Positions 4,771 to 24,343 of a stretch of 44,450 nucleotides of DNA are shown piece after piece. Numbering within the stretch: position 1 is the stretch's first letter; every line of letters begins with the position of its first letter. The DNA comes from an uncultured Bacteroidota bacterium (GTDB taxonomy: Bacteria > Bacteroidota > Bacteroidia > Chitinophagales > LD1), in contig CAISWS010000004.1 of assembly GCA_903889265.1 (NCBI GenBank), positions 1 to 44,450 on the forward strand, read 5' to 3'. The notes beneath the pieces were generated by a model that was given only the letters and a program-made list of their open reading frames with translations, made no database searches and had not been told where the DNA came from. The position numbers and the translations under genes were made by a program.

Positions 4771-7700
4771 ATGAGAAAACTTTACTTTTTGCTATTTCTT
4801 ATAGTTTATTCAATACAGGCATTTTCCCAAAATTACACTGTTCTTGGAAGCGCTTCTCAGCTTAGTTCCTGTAATTATTATCAGCTTACTCCAAACTCCG
4901 GCGATCAGGCAGGTGCTATTTTCCAGAATAAGACAATTAACCTTAACAACTCGTTCGACTTTACGTTCAGCAATTTTTTCGGCTGCAACGGAGCCAGCGG
5001 GGCTGATGGTGAAGCATTTGTTCTTACATCTAACCCAAATGGATTGGGTAATCAAGGTGAGGGCCTTGGTTACGGTGGGTCTAACCAGCCCTGCTCATTT
5101 GCCATTGAGTTTGATACCTGGCAAAATTCGGATCACGGTGATCCTTCATATGACCATACTGCTTATGAATCTGGTGGCAGCGTAAACCATAACGTTTCAG
5201 GCCCGGTAGCGGCACTTCCCAGCCAAAGTAATTTAGACAATTGCCAGTGGCACACCATCCGGATTGTTTGGAATGTAAATACCCAAACCATGGATGATTA
5301 TGTTGATGGTAATTTGCGTATAAGCATGGTGATACCCAACCTGGTAGGCACTTATTTATGCAATAATCCGATAGTTAACTGGGGTTGGACCGGCTCTACC
5401 GGTGGTGGTTGGAATCTTCAGCAGGTTAAAATTGTTACAATCTCAAGCTGGGTGGCAGGAACCAATTATGAAAGTTGCTCGCCCACCGTTCAGTTTACTG
5501 ATGTTTCTACCAGCCAGATTGGGCCCTTAAACACCTGGAGCTGGACTTTCGGGGATGGCACAACTTCTACCCAGCAAAATCCCCTTCACACTTATCCGGG
5601 TACAGGCACCTATAACGCCAGCCTGATAGTAACCGACGCCAGCGGTTGCCCCGATACATTTGCGCATGCAGTTGTAATCAAGGCACCTATTACCCTTACA
5701 CCTACCGTTACTCCCCCTTTGTGCAACGGTGCTCAAACAGGTAGTATTTTTGTAGATACTGCCGGTGGCTTTGGTTCAGCGGCCGGGCATGGAGGCTTTT
5801 CATTTAACTGGAGTAATGGCAGCCAGCAGCAAACGGATTTGGGCCTGGGTGCAGGTACTTACACCGTAACTGTAACCGATGGGGTTTGCAGTGCTACGGG
5901 TCAATACACAATCAATCAGCCAACCGCCGTCTCAGCTTCAACTTCTGCAACTGCGGCCAACTGCGGGGTACCTAACGGAACATGCACCATTACAATAACA
6001 GGCGGAACACCACCCTATCGCGGAACACCACCGGCAGGGGTTAATTTTGCCGGTATTGCTGCCACTGGTGGCCCAAATACCTTTACCGCTTCGGGCTTTT
6101 TGGGGGGGACTTATATTGCCGATTTTCAGGATGCAAATGGCTGCTCGGCCTTATTACAATATACGGCTACTGTCCCTACCTTACCTTGTGGCATATCTTC
6201 CAATGCAACTTCTACCAACGTAACCTGTTTTGGTGGTAATAATGGTAGCGCTACCTTAACGGTTACCGGTGCCGGGGTTGCACCGCCTGCAACAATTACA
6301 TGGACCAAAGCAGGAACTAATGTAGGTACTGGTGTAACCATCAGCAACCTTACTGCCGGAACCTATACTTACAGCTATACCGACCAGACACCGGGCAATC
6401 CTTTTACCGGTACGGTTGTAATATCACAACCATCTTCAGCCATTACAGTCACGCTTGCTACTTCCAATATCTCCTGTGCCGGTAATAATAATGGCCAGGC
6501 TATTGCTTCGGTTGGCAGCGGGGGAACTGCACCATTTACCTATGCATGGAGCGTAGCAGGACAGGGCAATAACCCGGTGGCAAGTAACCTCGGTACGGGC
6601 GGCATTACGGTAACGGTAACAGACGCAACCAACGTTTGCTCTGCTACCGCTACCGGTACTATTGCCAGTGCGCCGCTGCTGGTATTACCACCTCCCACTG
6701 TTACAAGCAACGCCTGTAATGCGGGTAATAATGGTAGTGCAACCGCCAACCCTACCGGGGGAACACCTTATACTGCCGGGGGAACACCATCCTATCAATA
6801 TTACTGGAGCAATATATCCAGTGCCAAAACTGATTTAAGTTTATCGGGTGGAACTTATACAGTTACGGTTACCGATAGCCTGGGGTGCAGTGCTACAGGA
6901 TCGGCAGTTATTTCCGAGGCCACTGCTTTTACAAACTCCATCGACTCAACCAATATTAAATGTTATGGTGATAGTACAGGTACAATTACCGTAAATTCAG
7001 CAGGAGGTACAACTCCTTATTCCTATAACTGGAGTTCTGACTCCACAGGCACGTTTAACCCAAATTTGGTTGGAGGAAGCCTTACTACGCTTAAAGCCGG
7101 TGAATATTTGCTAACCGTTACCGATGCACACGGGTGTACATTTATGGATAGTACTTTCCTGCAGCAACCTGCGGCACCTCTAACCATTGATACCTCGCAT
7201 GGTAATGTAACCTGCTTTGGGGCTAACAACGGGTTTATAGCTATTACCATACATGGTGGCACTGCCCCTTATACTTATCAGGGCAACCCTATACCTGCGG
7301 GGCCCGATACACTGGCTAACCTGGCACCGGCTGCTTACACCGGTATTATTATGGATGCTAACCAGTGTTCGGTTACAAATTCAATAATGGTTACCCAACC
7401 ATTGCCCGATAGTTTGGTATTAACCCAAACCAACGACCTTTGTTTTGGAACCTCTATTGGTACCGCCACCGCTAATTTTGTAAACCCAAATGGTGCGGTA
7501 ATTTATAGCTGGAGTAATAACCAGTCGGGTACTACCATTTCCGGCCTTGCGGCCAATATTTATAGTGTTACAGCTACGGATGCAAACAGCTGCAGCTTTA
7601 CCGGTAGTGTAACAATTAGTCAGCCACCGGCAATTACATTGCAGGTACCTGTAACCAACATACTTTGCTATGGGCAGGTTAACGGTGCAATTACTGTTAA

Positions 7701-9567
7701 TGCTACCGGTGGTACCGGGGCTCCCTATACTTATACATGGTCGCCTAATGTAAGTACCACTAACACAGCTTCCGGTTTGGCAAGCGGCCCTTATATTATT
7801 TCTGTTACCGATGGCAATAACTGCGTAAAAGATACGCTGATCAATATTACCGCGCCCCAGGCACCCTTATCCGCTATTTATACTGTAAACAATGTGCCTT
7901 GCTTTGGTACTAGCACCGGTAGTATTCTGGCATCCACCAGCGGAGGCACACCTCCTTACACTTATACCTGGCCGCCGGCGGCACCTTCACCGGATAGTGC
8001 ATCGCTTAATTTAGCTGCAGGTGGGCCTTATAACGTTACTATAACCGATGCAAACGGATGTACCATCGACTCGTTCTTTACCCTTACCCAGCCACAAGCA
8101 GCACTTACTATAACAACAAGTCAAACCAATCTGAGTTGTTATCAAAGTAACGATGGCTCTGCCACTGTTATTCCTGCAGGCGGCACTACGCCTTATAAAT
8201 ACGCCTGGACACCTTTTGAAGGCTCAAATGCTACGGCTACAAGCCTCGGTGCTGCCACTTATACTGTAACCGTAACGGATACAAATCAGTGTACTGCCAC
8301 TGCTCAGATTATTGTTACACAGCCTGCTCAGATTCTGGCTGATTCAGTAATTGTAAATATTTTGTGTAACGGGGCAGCTACCGGCTCTATAACACTAAAC
8401 ACTACCGGCGGTGTGCCGGGTGCAGGTTATTCTTACAACTGGAATCCGGCCAGCAGTATCACCAACGCAGCAACCAACCTGGCAGCCGGAACTTACAACG
8501 TGACTATTACCGATGCTACCAATTGTTCCATTACCAGAACTATTTCCCTGAGCCAGCCAACGGCTGTTACCATTAATCCGTCTACTACAGCAGTTAGCTG
8601 TTTCGGGGATGTTAACGGAACGCTGACGGCTATAGCCAGTGGTGGTACGGGGTCTACCTATAATTATCTCATCAGCAACGGAAGTAATATAACGCTCAGC
8701 AATACCACAGGCCAGTTCAACAACCTGCCTTCCAGTAACTATACTGTCGTAGCGGTGGACCAGAACAATTGTGCCGATACTATTCCGGTGGTAGTGGTAC
8801 ACCCTAACCCGATTACTGACCAGATCAGTACTGCCAACCAAAGTTGTTCTTACTTAACTAACGGACAGTTTGATGTGCAGGCTTTGGGTGGCAACGGTGG
8901 TTACCAGTTTTCAAGCCCTGGTTTAACCACCAACACCAGTGGGGTATTTACCGGCCTGGCACCGGGTACTTATTATCTTACTATCACCGATTCTAAAGGT
9001 TGTACTTTGGCCGATTCAGCAGTTTTAGCAGCTGCGGATACGGTGTTATTGAGTGTGGTTCCGGTCAACGGGCAGGTCAAACTGGGCGATAGCCTGCAAT
9101 TGAACTCAATTAACAACCAGCCGGGTAACGTAACTTACTTATGGACCCCCAATATTGGCCTCAGTTGTTACGATTGCGCTGACCCAGTTTTTAATGGAAT
9201 TTATTCTGAACCCTACACCGTTCAGGTTACCAACGACAGCGGATGTGTATCAACCTTCAATTTTACGGTTACCGTAATACCGGATTATCAGTTTTTTATA
9301 CCCAATGTGTTTACCCCTAACGGCGATGGCAAAAACGATACCTGGCAGATTTACGGAAGCACGGCAACCATTAAACAACTACAAATCATGGTTTTTGACC
9401 GTTGGGGCGAAAAGGTGTTCCAAAGCTATGATGTAAATTTTGTTTGGGATGGTATATATAAGGGGCAGTATGTGCCACAGGGTGTTTATGTTTATGCCCT
9501 TAAAATTGTGTGGCTCGATAACCACTCCGACGATACCGTCAAAGGCTCACTAACCATTTTGAGATAA
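4771..9567 (+). CDS. Secreted adhesin: L-type lectin-like domain, PKD domain, about 14 SprB repeats, CHU_C/T9SS type B C-terminal domain
   Basis: Signal peptide; lectin-like DGEAFVLTSNP...FAIEFDTWQN; PKD TWSWTFGDGTTSTQQNPLHTYPGTGTY; repeated CxGxxxGxxxxxxxGGTPPYxYxW...AGTYTVTVTDxxGC...QP; C-terminus FIPNVFTPNGDGKNDTWQIYG...RWGEKVF...WDGIYKGQYVPQGVYVYALKIVW. Confidence 0.9.
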   Translation: MRKLYFLLFLIVYSIQAFSQNYTVLGSASQLSSCNYYQLTPNSGDQAGAIFQNKTINLNNSFDFTFSNFFGCNGASGADGEAFVLTSNPNGLGNQGEGLGYGGSNQPCSFAIEFDTWQNSDHGDPSYDHTAYESGGSVNHNVSGPVAALPSQSNLDNCQWHTIRIVWNVNTQTMDDYVDGNLRISMVIPNLVGTYLCNNPIVNWGWTGSTGGGWNLQQVKIVTISSWVAGTNYESCSPTVQFTDVSTSQIGPLNTWSWTFGDGTTSTQQNPLHTYPGTGTYNASLIVTDASGCPDTFAHAVVIKAPITLTPTVTPPLCNGAQTGSIFVDTAGGFGSAAGHGGFSFNWSNGSQQQTDLGLGAGTYTVTVTDGVCSATGQYTINQPTAVSASTSATAANCGVPNGTCTITITGGTPPYRGTPPAGVNFAGIAATGGPNTFTASGFLGGTYIADFQDANGCSALLQYTATVPTLPCGISSNATSTNVTCFGGNNGSATLTVTGAGVAPPATITWTKAGTNVGTGVTISNLTAGTYTYSYTDQTPGNPFTGTVVISQPSSAITVTLATSNISCAGNNNGQAIASVGSGGTAPFTYAWSVAGQGNNPVASNLGTGGITVTVTDATNVCSATATGTIASAPLLVLPPPTVTSNACNAGNNGSATANPTGGTPYTAGGTPSYQYYWSNISSAKTDLSLSGGTYTVTVTDSLGCSATGSAVISEATAFTNSIDSTNIKCYGDSTGTITVNSAGGTTPYSYNWSSDSTGTFNPNLVGGSLTTLKAGEYLLTVTDAHGCTFMDSTFLQQPAAPLTIDTSHGNVTCFGANNGFIAITIHGGTAPYTYQGNPIPAGPDTLANLAPAAYTGIIMDANQCSVTNSIMVTQPLPDSLVLTQTNDLCFGTSIGTATANFVNPNGAVIYSWSNNQSGTTISGLAANIYSVTATDANSCSFTGSVTISQPPAITLQVPVTNILCYGQVNGAITVNATGGTGAPYTYTWSPNVSTTNTASGLASGPYIISVTDGNNCVKDTLINITAPQAPLSAIYTVNNVPCFGTSTGSILASTSGGTPPYTYTWPPAAPSPDSASLNLAAGGPYNVTITDANGCTIDSFFTLTQPQAALTITTSQTNLSCYQSNDGSATVIPAGGTTPYKYAWTPFEGSNATATSLGAATYTVTVTDTNQCTATAQIIVTQPAQILADSVIVNILCNGAATGSITLNTTGGVPGAGYSYNWNPASSITNAATNLAAGTYNVTITDATNCSITRTISLSQPTAVTINPSTTAVSCFGDVNGTLTAIASGGTGSTYNYLISNGSNITLSNTTGQFNNLPSSNYTVVAVDQNNCADTIPVVVVHPNPITDQISTANQSCSYLTNGQFDVQALGGNGGYQFSSPGLTTNTSGVFTGLAPGTYYLTITDSKGCTLADSAVLAAADTVLLSVVPVNGQVKLGDSLQLNSINNQPGNVTYLWTPNIGLSCYDCADPVFNGIYSEPYTVQVTNDSGCVSTFNFTVTVIPDYQFFIPNVFTPNGDGKNDTWQIYGSTATIKQLQIMVFDRWGEKVFQSYDVNFVWDGIYKGQYVPQGVYVYALKIVWLDNHSDDTVKGSLTILR

Positions 9568-9736: not shown

Positions 9737-12382
9737 ATGAAAAAGTATCCGGTTTTTGTTGTAATTTTTTTGGCATGCGGTTTCAAGGCAATGGCGCAGG
9801 CATTTTTGATCGCCAACCCATCGTTCAATAATACTGCAACCGAAATCAGCTGCGATTACTACCAGTTAACACCCGACGTATCATTTCAGCAGGGCGCTAT
9901 CTGGTTTAACCATCAGCTTAACCTCAGCACGCCCTTCGATTTTACGTTTGATATCTTTATGGGCACCAACAACGGCCAGGGCGCCGATGGTATGGCCTTT
10001 ATTATTCAAAATCAGGGCCAGAACCTGGGCCCGCAGGGTTCATTTGGCAGCCAGTTGGGCTACGGCACTTTTCCGGGGAAATCCCTTGCTGTTGAGTACG
10101 ATACTCATAATAACGGGCCAGGCGCTCCTTACGGCGATATAGCCCAGCACCACATTGCTATTGATACCGGTGGTATTCAGTTTCCATCTGCTGCAGGCCC
10201 GGTTCCCGCTCTGGCTTCAGGTAACAACATTGATGATGGTAACTGGCATACTACCGAAATAGTATGGGCTCCGGGAACGCAAACCATGACCATCTATTTT
10301 GATGGGGCTGTGCGCCTTACAACTACCTTTACCGGTGGGCTTGCAGGTTCAATCTTTAATAACCAGAACCTGCTTTACTGGGGTTGGACCGGTGCCAGCG
10401 GAAGCAAATTCAATACCCAACAGGTACGCATACCCTTAAAGGCAGATTTTGTTGCAGCCAATAACTATTTCCAATGCGGTTTGAACAATGTTCAATTTAC
10501 CGACTCATCTGTTAGCGGATTGCATGACCTTACTTACTTATGGAGCTTTGCCGATGGTACTACAGCCACCACGCAGGATGTATCACATAACTTTGCATCC
10601 TCTGGTAGCTATAATGTAAATCTTTCCGTTACGGATGGTGGCGGATGCATGGCTGACACAGTTATTCCGGTTAAGGTTTATACGGTTCCGGCTATTACTC
10701 CTTCACAAACCAACGTTACCTGCTTTGGTTATGGCAACGGCATTGCACGCGCAGCGGTAACAGGCGGAACTCCCGCGTACACTTACACCTGGGTACCACA
10801 GGTAAGCACCGTAGACTCTGCCTTAGGCCTGGCGCCCGGAAATTACGGACTGATTGTTACCGACCAAAATGGCTGTGCCGATACCACCGGTTATATTATT
10901 ACCCAGCCTCCGGCTTTAACTGATTCGTTGGTGCAGGTTAATGTTTTATGCTTCGGCCAATCAACCGGTTCACTTACTTCAATAGCCGGTGGCGGAACAC
11001 CAGGTTATAGTTACCGCTGGAACCCCAACATAGCCAACACAACCAACACAAATTCCAGCCTGGCCGCAGGCACATACTCAACTACACTCGTAGATGCCAA
11101 TGGTTGCCGCGACTCATTAGTGGCTGTTATTACCGAGCCCGCAGCACCGCTTGCTGCTACGTTAGCCATTACGAACGTTCCCTGCTACGGCACATCGTCA
11201 GGCTCCGTTACAGTTACTGCCAACGGCGGTACTCCGGCATATACCTATAACTGGAATCCTTCCGAACCAGCTACTGCCTCCATAAACCAGGTTCCCGCAG
11301 GTAATTATAGCGTTACCGTTACTGATGCAAATGGCTGTTCTCTGGTTGAAGATACCATCATAACGCAACCATCTGCTGCACTTTCCTTAACCGTTACTGC
11401 TACCCCGGTTTTATGTTATGGTTACCCAACCGGAACCATTATAGCCATAGCAGCAGGAGGCACTCCGGTATATTCTTTTACGCTTGCCAGCGGTGGCACA
11501 TCTGTTACCAGCAACTCAGGCGAATTCCACAACCTGCTGCCAACTACTTATACAGTAACATTAACTGACCAGAAAGGCTGTACAGCCGATAGCGTTGTTA
11601 CCGTTAATTCGCCACCACAACTGGTAATCGACAGCACACCCGCTATTTCTCCCAAATGCTATGGCTACACAGACGGGCAAATAAAAGTATCGGCCGGAGG
11701 AGGAACACCAGGATACAGCTATCAGTTTTCAAACGGTGTTACCGATACCAGCGGAATAGATAATAACATCGCTGCAGGAACCTATAAAGTTACTGTTACA
11801 GATAACAGCGGCTGTACAGTAGCAGACAGTACTATTACCCTAACCCAACCAGATTCTGTTATTGTAAATGTTACTCCTGCACCGGTACAGGTAATTTTAG
11901 GTAACGAATTGCAGTTAGGTGCCACAACAAACCAAAATGGCACTATAACCTATAGCTGGTCGCCCGATTTTGGGTTAAGCTGCTACGATTGCCCCGACCC
12001 GGTATTTAACGGTGTTTTCTCGCAGCCGTACAACGTTGTAGCAACCAACCAAAACGGTTGCTCAGGTAGCTTTCCGTTTACAGTAACAGTGGTACCGGAG
12101 TATAATATCTTTTTTCCCAATGCATTTTTGCCTGAAGGCAGCGGAGCTAACCGCGTATGGCAGGTATTTGGCAAAACAAATGCGGTGCTGGAATTCCACG
12201 TTTCAGTCTTTGACAGGTTTGGAGAAAAGGTTTTTGAAAGCAACTCAGTAGATTACCAATGGGACGGAAGCTTTAAAGGCAAACCTGCCCCCTTGGGGGT
12301 TTATACTTACATGGCCCGAATAGTTTGGCTAAACGACTACACCGAAAAGCTATTTGAAGGCACGGTTACTTTGTTGCGTTAG
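9737..12382 (+). CDS. Secreted adhesin paralog: L-type lectin-like domain, PKD domain, about 5 SprB repeats, CHU_C/T9SS type B C-terminal domain
   Basis: Same architecture as 4771-9567; near-identical pre-CTD motif GLSCYDCPDPVFNGVFSQPYNVVATNQNGC. Confidence 0.9.
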   Translation: MKKYPVFVVIFLACGFKAMAQAFLIANPSFNNTATEISCDYYQLTPDVSFQQGAIWFNHQLNLSTPFDFTFDIFMGTNNGQGADGMAFIIQNQGQNLGPQGSFGSQLGYGTFPGKSLAVEYDTHNNGPGAPYGDIAQHHIAIDTGGIQFPSAAGPVPALASGNNIDDGNWHTTEIVWAPGTQTMTIYFDGAVRLTTTFTGGLAGSIFNNQNLLYWGWTGASGSKFNTQQVRIPLKADFVAANNYFQCGLNNVQFTDSSVSGLHDLTYLWSFADGTTATTQDVSHNFASSGSYNVNLSVTDGGGCMADTVIPVKVYTVPAITPSQTNVTCFGYGNGIARAAVTGGTPAYTYTWVPQVSTVDSALGLAPGNYGLIVTDQNGCADTTGYIITQPPALTDSLVQVNVLCFGQSTGSLTSIAGGGTPGYSYRWNPNIANTTNTNSSLAAGTYSTTLVDANGCRDSLVAVITEPAAPLAATLAITNVPCYGTSSGSVTVTANGGTPAYTYNWNPSEPATASINQVPAGNYSVTVTDANGCSLVEDTIITQPSAALSLTVTATPVLCYGYPTGTIIAIAAGGTPVYSFTLASGGTSVTSNSGEFHNLLPTTYTVTLTDQKGCTADSVVTVNSPPQLVIDSTPAISPKCYGYTDGQIKVSAGGGTPGYSYQFSNGVTDTSGIDNNIAAGTYKVTVTDNSGCTVADSTITLTQPDSVIVNVTPAPVQVILGNELQLGATTNQNGTITYSWSPDFGLSCYDCPDPVFNGVFSQPYNVVATNQNGCSGSFPFTVTVVPEYNIFFPNAFLPEGSGANRVWQVFGKTNAVLEFHVSVFDRFGEKVFESNSVDYQWDGSFKGKPAPLGVYTYMARIVWLNDYTEKLFEGTVTLLR

Positions 12383-21581: not shown

Positions 21582-22958
21582 TCAGGCACGCTTTTCTATG
21601 TCCATTCTCATCCCGTTTTTCATGCGCAGGGTTACCATGGGGTGCATTTCAGGCACAAACCCCTTGCTTACTTTAAACCGGAATTTCTGTAACATCATTA
21701 CAAGAATTAACTGCATTTCCATCAATGCAAAATTATTACCAATACACTGCCTGGGTCCGCCGCCAAAGGGGAAATAAGCAAACCGGTGGTGGCTTTTTGC
21801 ATTTTCTTTACTGAATCTTTCGGGCATAAAGGCATCAGGGGAATCCCACAAACGAGGATCGCGGTGAATGGTAAAAACAGGTATCATAAAAGTAAACCCC
21901 CTAGGGATTACGTAATCACCAAACATGTCATCATCAATATTCTCCCGCATTATAAGCCATGCCGGTGGATATAGCCTTAAAGATTCATCCATCACCATCT
22001 TTGTAAAAGGCATGCGTTGAAGGTCCTCTAACGCTGGTGTGCGCCCCTGCGTTACCTGGTCAATTTCATCATAAAGTTTTTGGGCTTCCTTTGGGTTCTT
22101 ATCCAGTAAATACCACAGCCAGCTTAAAGCAAGCGCTGTAGTTTCATGCCCCGCCAAAAAAATGGTCATTGTTTCATCTCTCAATTGCTGGTCGCTCATC
22201 TGCTCGCCCGTATCCTCGTCCTTAGCTTCCATCAGCATAGCAAGGAGGTCGTCAAAGTGCTCGGTGCTTTTACGCCTTTCGCGGATAATAGGGTTTAATA
22301 CATCATCCAGATTTTTAATTGATTTACGCTCAGCCAGGTTTGCCGGAGTTGGAAAACGAATAGGCAACCTGAGCGGATTATTAAAACGCGCAGTAGCCAT
22401 AACACTGGTGCGTTCAATTTCGTGACTAACCACATCAATGGCTCCCTTCACCTCACTGCTGAACATGGCGCCAGCAACAATATTTAGGGTGAGTTCCATC
22501 ATCTGGGTACTGATGTCAACGTTTTGCTTATCGGCAAGCCGCTCCATTTTTTCAATCTGTTGCTGTGTACAGCGTACCATAGTATCCGCCATCCTTGCCA
22601 ATCTTTCCTTGTGAAAAGCCGGTTGCGCCAGCCTTCTTTGTTTTCTCCAAAAATCACCTTCACTGGTCAGCAACCCGCGGCCCAACAATAGCTCAAGCAC
22701 ATCATTCTTAAACCACTTGGTGTAATTCTTGTTGTTATCCTGCATTACATGCTTAACATATTCAGGGTCGGTTAATACCACGAGGTTCAAAATACGCGAT
22801 GTAACACGGAAAATGCCATTAAACTGTGCAGTGCTTTCCTGCAAAAAAGATACTGGGTCTTTAAGCAGGTGCCAGGCATTACCAAAAAACCAATGTGCTT
22901 TTTTAGGACGAGGGGGCAAACCTGTTTTAGGTTTAGGTGCTGTAGCTGTGTCGGACAT
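21582..22958 (-). CDS. Cytochrome P450
   Basis: AGHETTA, ESLR, PERF, FGGGPRQCIGNNFALMEMQ heme motif; no N-terminal membrane anchor. Confidence 0.97.
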   Translation of the reverse strand: MSDTATAPKPKTGLPPRPKKAHWFFGNAWHLLKDPVSFLQESTAQFNGIFRVTSRILNLVVLTDPEYVKHVMQDNNKNYTKWFKNDVLELLLGRGLLTSEGDFWRKQRRLAQPAFHKERLARMADTMVRCTQQQIEKMERLADKQNVDISTQMMELTLNIVAGAMFSSEVKGAIDVVSHEIERTSVMATARFNNPLRLPIRFPTPANLAERKSIKNLDDVLNPIIRERRKSTEHFDDLLAMLMEAKDEDTGEQMSDQQLRDETMTIFLAGHETTALALSWLWYLLDKNPKEAQKLYDEIDQVTQGRTPALEDLQRMPFTKMVMDESLRLYPPAWLIMRENIDDDMFGDYVIPRGFTFMIPVFTIHRDPRLWDSPDAFMPERFSKENAKSHHRFAYFPFGGGPRQCIGNNFALMEMQLILVMMLQKFRFKVSKGFVPEMHPMVTLRMKNGMRMDIEKRA

Positions 22959-23026
22959 AGGATGGTGAAATTAGCCTAAGCAGAGAGAATTGACAAATTT
23001 TAAAAGTTGTCAATTCGGGGCTAACC

Positions 23027-24343
23027 TTAAATCACCCCTGGTATAATCTTATAAGGAACCAAATCCCTGTATTCCTCCCAGTGTTCACCATATTTTTTGC
23101 TGCACTTAGCCTCATCGCGGAAAGCCCGGTGCGTTAATAAGGCGCAAAGAAAAATGACATAAAAGAAAGGCGCAAAAAACGAAAAACCCGTTGCACAGCT
23201 CCAGAAAAAAGCCGACATAATTTCGGGCACATAATGAAAATGGCTGCTAATACCCCAAAAGCCGGAAGCCAGCAAAAGATTTTTCTTTTTCTCGCCGGTA
23301 TCGGTGGTGTAATGAGCATGAATAAGTACCGGCTTTTCACCCCAAATAGTAGTTTTCCCATTCGTTGAACGAACCACCTGCCTTTGCCTGTCGGCCCAAT
23401 AATTGAGGAATATTGAGGCAAGGCCTGCAGCAAAAATTAAAGCTGCTGCCCATAAAGATAATCCAACCGGATGTTTTACCATAAACATAACCGGGCTGGT
23501 ATAAACTGCAGGCACCCATACCAGGCATCCCCAGCAGATATAAAAGCCTGCCCTGTCAACAATAATATCCATAGAGCGCATATAGCCTGATTCCCAAATA
23601 AAAAATTTGAACAGGTAAATAACTATCAGCACTGCGGAAATAATGATAGACCAATCAGCTTTGCCATAAATATGCGCCTGTGCAAAAGCAAATGAAGTAA
23701 CCGCAATAGCCCAACCGGTCATACCAAAACGGCAATTGGTAAACTGCTTTATATCCCAGCCTAAAATACGTGGGTATAATTCGGTACCCCAATAATAGTC
23801 GAACAGAAAATTACCGGTGGTTCCATTATCGGTAGATGAAGGAGCAAACCTGCCTTTAAAATAAAGCAACAGGCAAAAAACAAGGGCCGTAAAATTCAAT
23901 GCACCCAAAATATCACCAAAATTATCGTACACAATGGATGGTTCAAACCAGCCTAAGCCTATAGTGCAACCAAAAAACAAAGCAAAGGTAATGATGTAGG
24001 AGGCCAGGCCGTTATCCTTATATACTGGCAAATTACCCATAGGCGTAATAGTTCCGGTATATTTTTTACCCGGCAAAATACGCATCAGCAGCAACTGTAA
24101 GGCCGCAAAAATGCCAATCGCCTTCCAAGCCAGTACTGAACCGAAAAAATGTGCCCACCAAACATTTTTAAGCTCGCTTAACAAACTGTTTGTCATTAGC
24201 GCGTGATACAATTTTGCAAACGAGCCATCCAGGTTAACATTTACATGCCACATCAACATGGCAAACGGAGGACAGACAAAAACAAAAAAAAGTGGCCCTA
24301 AAAAACGGGTTAAAAAATTCTCTTCAGTTACGGTTTTACTCAT
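23027..24343 (-). CDS. 7-dehydrocholesterol reductase-like sterol reductase (ERG4/ERG24 family)
   Basis: Multi-pass; DYYWGTELYPRILGWDIKQFTNCRFGMTGWA, DRAGFYICWGCLVWVPAVYTSP, NYWADRQRQVVRSTNGKTTIWGEKP, LLLASGFWGISSHFHYVPEIMSAFFW, LLTHRAFRDEAKCSKKYGEHWEEYRDLVPYKIIPGVI. Confidence 0.93.
   Translation of the reverse strand: MSKTVTEENFLTRFLGPLFFVFVCPPFAMLMWHVNVNLDGSFAKLYHALMTNSLLSELKNVWWAHFFGSVLAWKAIGIFAALQLLLMRILPGKKYTGTITPMGNLPVYKDNGLASYIITFALFFGCTIGLGWFEPSIVYDNFGDILGALNFTALVFCLLLYFKGRFAPSSTDNGTTGNFLFDYYWGTELYPRILGWDIKQFTNCRFGMTGWAIAVTSFAFAQAHIYGKADWSIIISAVLIVIYLFKFFIWESGYMRSMDIIVDRAGFYICWGCLVWVPAVYTSPVMFMVKHPVGLSLWAAALIFAAGLASIFLNYWADRQRQVVRSTNGKTTIWGEKPVLIHAHYTTDTGEKKKNLLLASGFWGISSHFHYVPEIMSAFFWSCATGFSFFAPFFYVIFLCALLTHRAFRDEAKCSKKYGEHWEEYRDLVPYKIIPGVI

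Follow-up and report, generated by a model that had tools for sequence, protein, structure and literature searches.

Enzymes of the DHCR7 kind catalyze the last step to cholesterol, and bacterial Delta7 reductases have previously been known from amoeba-associated lineages, where they have been interpreted as tools of parasites for dealing with host cholesterol. Against provisional sequences of plant DWF5 (Arabidopsis) and human DHCR7, used only as a lead, the reductase considered here is about 49% and 36% identical, respectively. It has motifs in common with both along its length, and differs in having a Ser at the position equivalent to R404 and in its bacterial genome context. A 2009 study placed the Legionella and Chlamydiae group among the sterol Delta7 reductases, as relatives of plant DWF5, with the L. 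drancourtii protein 52-54% identical to DWF5 and clustering with Delta7 reductases; a single Legionella species was then stated to have one (PMC2667531). Delta7-type reductases were seen here in several Legionella species and Legionellaceae MAGs (L011, L012, L014, L016-L018). The enzymes of L. drancourtii and Protochlamydia amoebophila and Coxiella CBU1158 belong to the same Pfam family and Delta7-type clade as the present one and have the HFHYxPE motif. Unlike them, it has Ser for the Arg before HFHY, falls in a separate clade, and comes from a member of the Bacteroidota that itself encodes a squalene epoxidase and a cycloartenol-type cyclase. The open-access literature searched, which is only part of the whole, gave no published report of a Delta7 reductase in Bacteroidota, and for these enzymes both such a host and a cycloartenol background seem to be new.

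The gene lies in a 44,450-nt stretch of DNA, here called the window, from a Bacteroidota genome of 5.1 Mb in 527 contigs (99.5% complete). A first-pass annotation of this DNA had described a 438-aa ORF with DHCR7 signatures, and the ORF (23027..24343, minus strand) does carry the motifs quoted, distributed along its length (NCRFGM, DRAGFYICWGCLVWVPAVYTSP, DRQRQVVRSTNGK, GISSHFHYVPEIMSAFFW, and KYGEHWEEYRDLVPYKIIPG). It matches Pfam ERG4_ERG24 (PF01222) over residues 26-437 with E=4e-64 (217 bits vs. a cut-off of 27), a profile match far beyond chance, as is that of the neighboring cytochrome P450 (PF00067, 329 bits); no NCBIfam model was found for the reductase. Sequence comparison with solved structures gave two relatives only, both Delta14-sterol reductases, with 198 bits to 4QUV (MaSR1 of Methylomicrobium alcaliphilum). 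An AlphaFold2 model built from 21 homologues (pLDDT 83) has the same fold as MaSR1 (E=4e-20, TM 0.80/0.89) at 29% sequence identity. Placement with an isoprenylcysteine methyltransferase-like family was also looked for and was rejected, the match to ICMT (5V7P; TM about 0.36, E 0.08) being weak and far behind that to 4QUV. Among the NADPH-pocket residues, R406 (the Arg395 of MaSR1), R409, Y418, and Y425 are invariant in the alignment and D410 almost so, while MaSR1 N359 is replaced by His370, as in the Delta7 clade. Values of dN/dS between 0.04 and 0.08, which are rough because synonymous sites are near saturation, indicate that the gene is kept under purifying selection. By sequence and predicted fold, the protein is a member of the plant-type Delta7-reductase clade.

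Among 84,980 species genomes searched, the nearest homologues are in seven Bacteroidota MAGs (70-93% identity), with an eighth, partial, at 74%. Next come the reductases of Legionella and Chlamydiae (52-57%), for which plant DWF5 is the relative given in the literature, so that the description of the protein as a plant-type Delta7-reductase homologue stands. In a phylogenetic reconstruction, the Delta7 type, including the window, Legionella, and Chlamydiae sequences, is set apart with 100/100 support from sequences of the type of SR2, the second ERG4/ERG24 protein of this genome. Sequences from Bacteroidota family f1, together with one from genome G061, stand apart from Legionella/Chlamydiae on a long branch with full support, and the window reductase's own clade sits on a 0.56 branch. 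Another Bacteroidota lineage, made up of families f12 and f19, joins Legionella/Chlamydiae instead; it is therefore likely that Bacteroidota acquired a Delta7-type reductase at least twice. The distribution in the phylum is sparse: of 396 Bacteroidota genomes drawn from across the phylum, the window genome alone had the Delta7 type, and six others carried homologues of a different subtype (31-35% identity). Viral contigs were scanned twice and gave no giant-virus homologues. In two f12 genomes (L127:1-3244 and L128:7671-10906), HlyD-like and ABC-transporter genes come after the reductase gene, an arrangement that suggests export or import of a product.

The loss of the Arg that usually precedes HF[HN]Y, reported in the first-pass annotation, is real. 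The residue is Ser367 in the window protein (GISSHFHY; codon 23243..23245, minus strand, computed as 24343-3*366); of the 29 homologues aligned, 21 have Arg there, a residue that is not known to be a strict requirement. Ser367 aligns with MaSR1 R356, three residues upstream of N359, and presumably with human DHCR7 R404. Mutation of this Arg in humans leads to Smith-Lemli-Opitz syndrome. The R404C variant is pathogenic and lies close to the NADPH site (PMC5796090), and in MaSR1 the NADPH pocket includes N359 and R395 (PMC4951196). In the alignment, the equivalents of these two MaSR1 residues are close to position 367 and to a second changed position, Arg426 (codon 23066..23068, minus strand), which directly follows the invariant Tyr425. 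The eight homologues with Ser367 are the six-genome clade of the window, where relatives are 78-93% identical, and two f12 genomes. All eight also have Arg426 and Ala412 (codon 23108..23110, minus strand), whereas of the 21 with Arg367, 20 have Cys426, one has Lys426, and none has Ala412. The two sets are told apart by four columns only (312, 367, 412, and 426), with column 312 lacking a shared residue, so that 412 is the third column to split them by a residue held in common.

Ser367, Arg426, and Ala412 are thus perfectly linked in two separate lineages, and the Arg-to-Ser change arose twice and is fixed in the six-genome clade. Because Ser367 came with Arg426 both times, the pattern suggests a relocated cofactor-binding arginine, with Arg426 substituting for the lost Arg367 and presumably taking over its contact. 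Since the lost Arg is a disease site in human DHCR7, the activity of the reductase may be altered. Decay toward a pseudogene was considered and rejected, given the fixation of Ser367 in the clade, the low dN/dS, and the gain of Arg426 alongside. The linked columns and dN/dS together argue for a maintained, compensated enzyme. The Ser/Arg swap is a natural experiment on the Smith-Lemli-Opitz residue.

Sterol genes of the host itself lie outside the window. The first-pass annotation was correct that neither squalene monooxygenase nor oxidosqualene cyclase (OSC) is encoded there, and a search of the genome found both on other contigs, in a conserved cluster with squalene synthase (TIGR01559, 451 bits, over the cut-off). 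The squalene epoxidase, on contig C451, matches PF08491 (301 bits) and resembles human SQLE (289 bits to 6C6N). The OSC exceeds the TIGR01787 cut-off, has the DCTAE acid motif, and scores 645 bits to human OSC vs. 156 to SHC; its gene is split over contigs C254 (L025) and C451 (L024), with the N-terminal 84 residues on C451 beside the squalene synthase and epoxidase genes (SQS-SQLE). The divergent arrangement of OSC and SQS-SQLE, or one much like it, is also seen in most of the relatives read; within the family the cluster is conserved, and across the order its occurrence is scattered. In all loci read the cyclase has the triad Tyr410/His477/Ile481, a cycloartenol-synthase signature. For the Ile position there is the Ile453 rule for cycloartenol synthases (PMC4919349). 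Judging by these genes, the bacterium makes squalene epoxide and probably cycloartenol. Fluviicola taffensis, a Bacteroidetes cycloartenol maker, likewise has a squalene epoxidase and a CAS-type cyclase (PMC4919349), but no ERG24/ERG4-type reductase is listed there, in contrast to the two ERG4/ERG24 proteins here.

The earlier proposal that sterols are made elsewhere in the genome therefore holds as far as cycloartenol, but no route from there to a Delta7 sterol is recognizable. The genes flanking the cluster are mevalonate genes (HMG-CoA reductase) and regulators, with no further sterol enzymes, and the reductase lies away from the cyclase cluster in the loci read. No CYP51 was recognized among the P450s in the window and on contigs C46, C296, C279, and C119. 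For the window P450 and the half on C46, the closest structures are of the CYP97/CYP102/CYP4 type; the C296 protein is about 40% identical to the window P450 and of the same type, as is, by inspection, that on C279, and the C119 P450 is, also by inspection, of a class I bacterial type. An EBP-type isomerase was searched for and not found; searches for ERG2 and SMT gave no match, with control genomes equally silent. The genome does encode 13 PF04116 (sterol-desaturase/FA_hydroxylase) proteins, several with C5-desaturase-like histidine boxes. SR2 (370 aa, contig C296, L022:11319-12431) is about 27-29% identical to the window reductase and encoded divergently from an NmrA-like gene, near an SDR and a P450 gene; it is found in 14 of the 25 OSC-bearing genomes of the order. 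SR2, the PF04116 proteins, and several of the P450s could be parts of an unrecognized sterol pathway.

Occurrence of reductase and cyclase was compared across relatives. Among 199 genomes of the order, OSC is found in 25 and SQLE in 26, almost always together. Within the family, ten genomes have both reductase and cyclase, seven the cyclase only, seven the reductase only, and six neither, so an association at this level was rejected (Fisher p=1.0). Six genomes that are 89-99% complete (G110, G116, G133, G138, G142, and G158, with G133 at 99% and G116 at 98%) carry the reductase but neither OSC nor SQLE. Because reductase and cyclase are unassociated within the family and such reductase-only genomes exist, the reductase does not depend on the host's own sterol synthesis, and this is the main reason for preferring sterols from outside as its substrate.

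The explanation preferred here, to which we give about an even chance, is that this is an acquired Delta7-family reductase acting mainly on sterols from outside, with the P450 a mere neighbor. The protein would be a sterol reductase of the plant-type Delta7 family that sits in the membrane and depends on NADPH, its gene acquired by an ancestor of the Bacteroidota family from a pool common to plants and the amoeba-associated Legionella and Chlamydiae. It would still reduce the double bond of sterols at C7 (or a related one), with Arg426 making the phosphate contact once made by Arg367. It would act mainly on Delta5,7 or Delta7 sterols from algae, fungi, protists, or detritus; since the host's own cluster ends at cycloartenol, with no recognized continuation to a Delta7 sterol, outside substrates more probably fit than an own sterol. 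The source may be the algae, fungi, and protists of bog and lake water, going partly by the titles of the MAGs. With the reductase fixed in a Bacteroidota family whose members occur with and without a cycloartenol cluster, remodeling of environmental sterols and own synthesis could be compared directly, and bacterial conversion of Delta5,7 sterols would bear on sterol biomarkers.

It is also possible, if rather doubtful, that in the OSC-bearing members the reductase acts late in a full sterol pathway of their own, starting from cycloartenol and with 14-demethylase, 4-demethylase, and isomerase all unrecognized. The SQS-SQLE/OSC cluster has been kept in this genome and most relatives examined, the cyclase is of the CAS type in all loci read, and the second ERG4/ERG24 protein on C296 and the 13 PF04116 proteins could supply further steps. 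Other bacteria carry out C-4 demethylation with unrelated enzymes (PMC10202945), and across the order the reductase is found in 11 of 25 genomes with OSC but only 10 of 174 without (p=2e-6, a value that ignores descent). Against this are the lack of a recognized CYP51 or EBP in the genome, the distance of the reductase from the cyclase cluster in the loci read, and the many genomes with one gene and not the other (14 of 25 with OSC lack the reductase, and 10 of 21 with the reductase lack OSC). A more specific version, a novel plant-like pathway running from the host's own cycloartenol synthase to Delta7 reduction through unrecognized substitutes for CYP51 and EBP, with a relocated NADPH arginine (Ser367/Arg426), is considered quite unlikely.

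A shifted job for the enzyme is an improbable reading as well. Here Ser367/Arg426 would mark an altered cofactor or substrate preference, for another sterol double bond or a non-sterol polyprenoid, consistent with the fixation of this pair in the clade, its convergent appearance in f12, and two further linked columns. Broad specificity is possible for such enzymes, as in Coxiella Stmp1, a Delta24-type homologue (PMC8787468). Every other invariant residue of the Delta7 clade is retained, however, and because Arg-bearing sister sequences from the same genus lie in the same gene neighborhood, function has probably not been changed wholesale.

The first-pass annotation had also paired the reductase with a soluble P450 68 nt downstream on the same strand, as a possible operon reducing and hydroxylating sterols. 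The arrangement is as described: the reductase is upstream of a 458-aa, CYP97/CYP102-like P450 (21582..22958, minus strand), across a gap at 22959..23026 (minus strand) in which promoter prediction was empty, and the order of the two genes is repeated in the two closest relatives (L004 and L005). The functional pairing did not hold up. Genes on the opposite strand separate the two in both relatives (a PIN-domain gene with a small partner gene in L004, a GDSL hydrolase gene in L005), and in the deeper relatives L006-L009 the reductase adjoins an RmlD-like gene with no P450 there. The gap itself contains a strong hairpin with a 10-bp stem (core AATTGACAA..TTGTCAATT, -18.4 kcal/mol, z -3.3), which is not followed by a T run and has no second copy in the window. 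The best solved relatives of the P450 are CYP97A3 (LUT5; 256 bits) and then CYP102, with no CYP51 among the best 60. A sterol operon is thus very unlikely, and the P450 is probably a neighbor of the reductase at an insertion-prone site, not a pathway partner.

An assembly artefact or contaminating eukaryotic or Legionella DNA might be imagined in a draft of 527 contigs, but has a negligible chance and was rejected, since gene order matches independent Bacteroidota MAGs (L004 and L005 each have 11 to 15 of the window genes), T9SS/SprB proteins and ClpX are encoded in the window, the clade is apart from Legionella/Chlamydiae with full support, and the recurrence of the sterol cluster arrangement in relatives argues strongly against contamination.

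Elsewhere in the window, at 4771-9567 and 9737-12382, are genes for two large T9SS-type proteins with legume-lectin-like domains and PKD and SprB repeats, which are likely to be surface adhesins.
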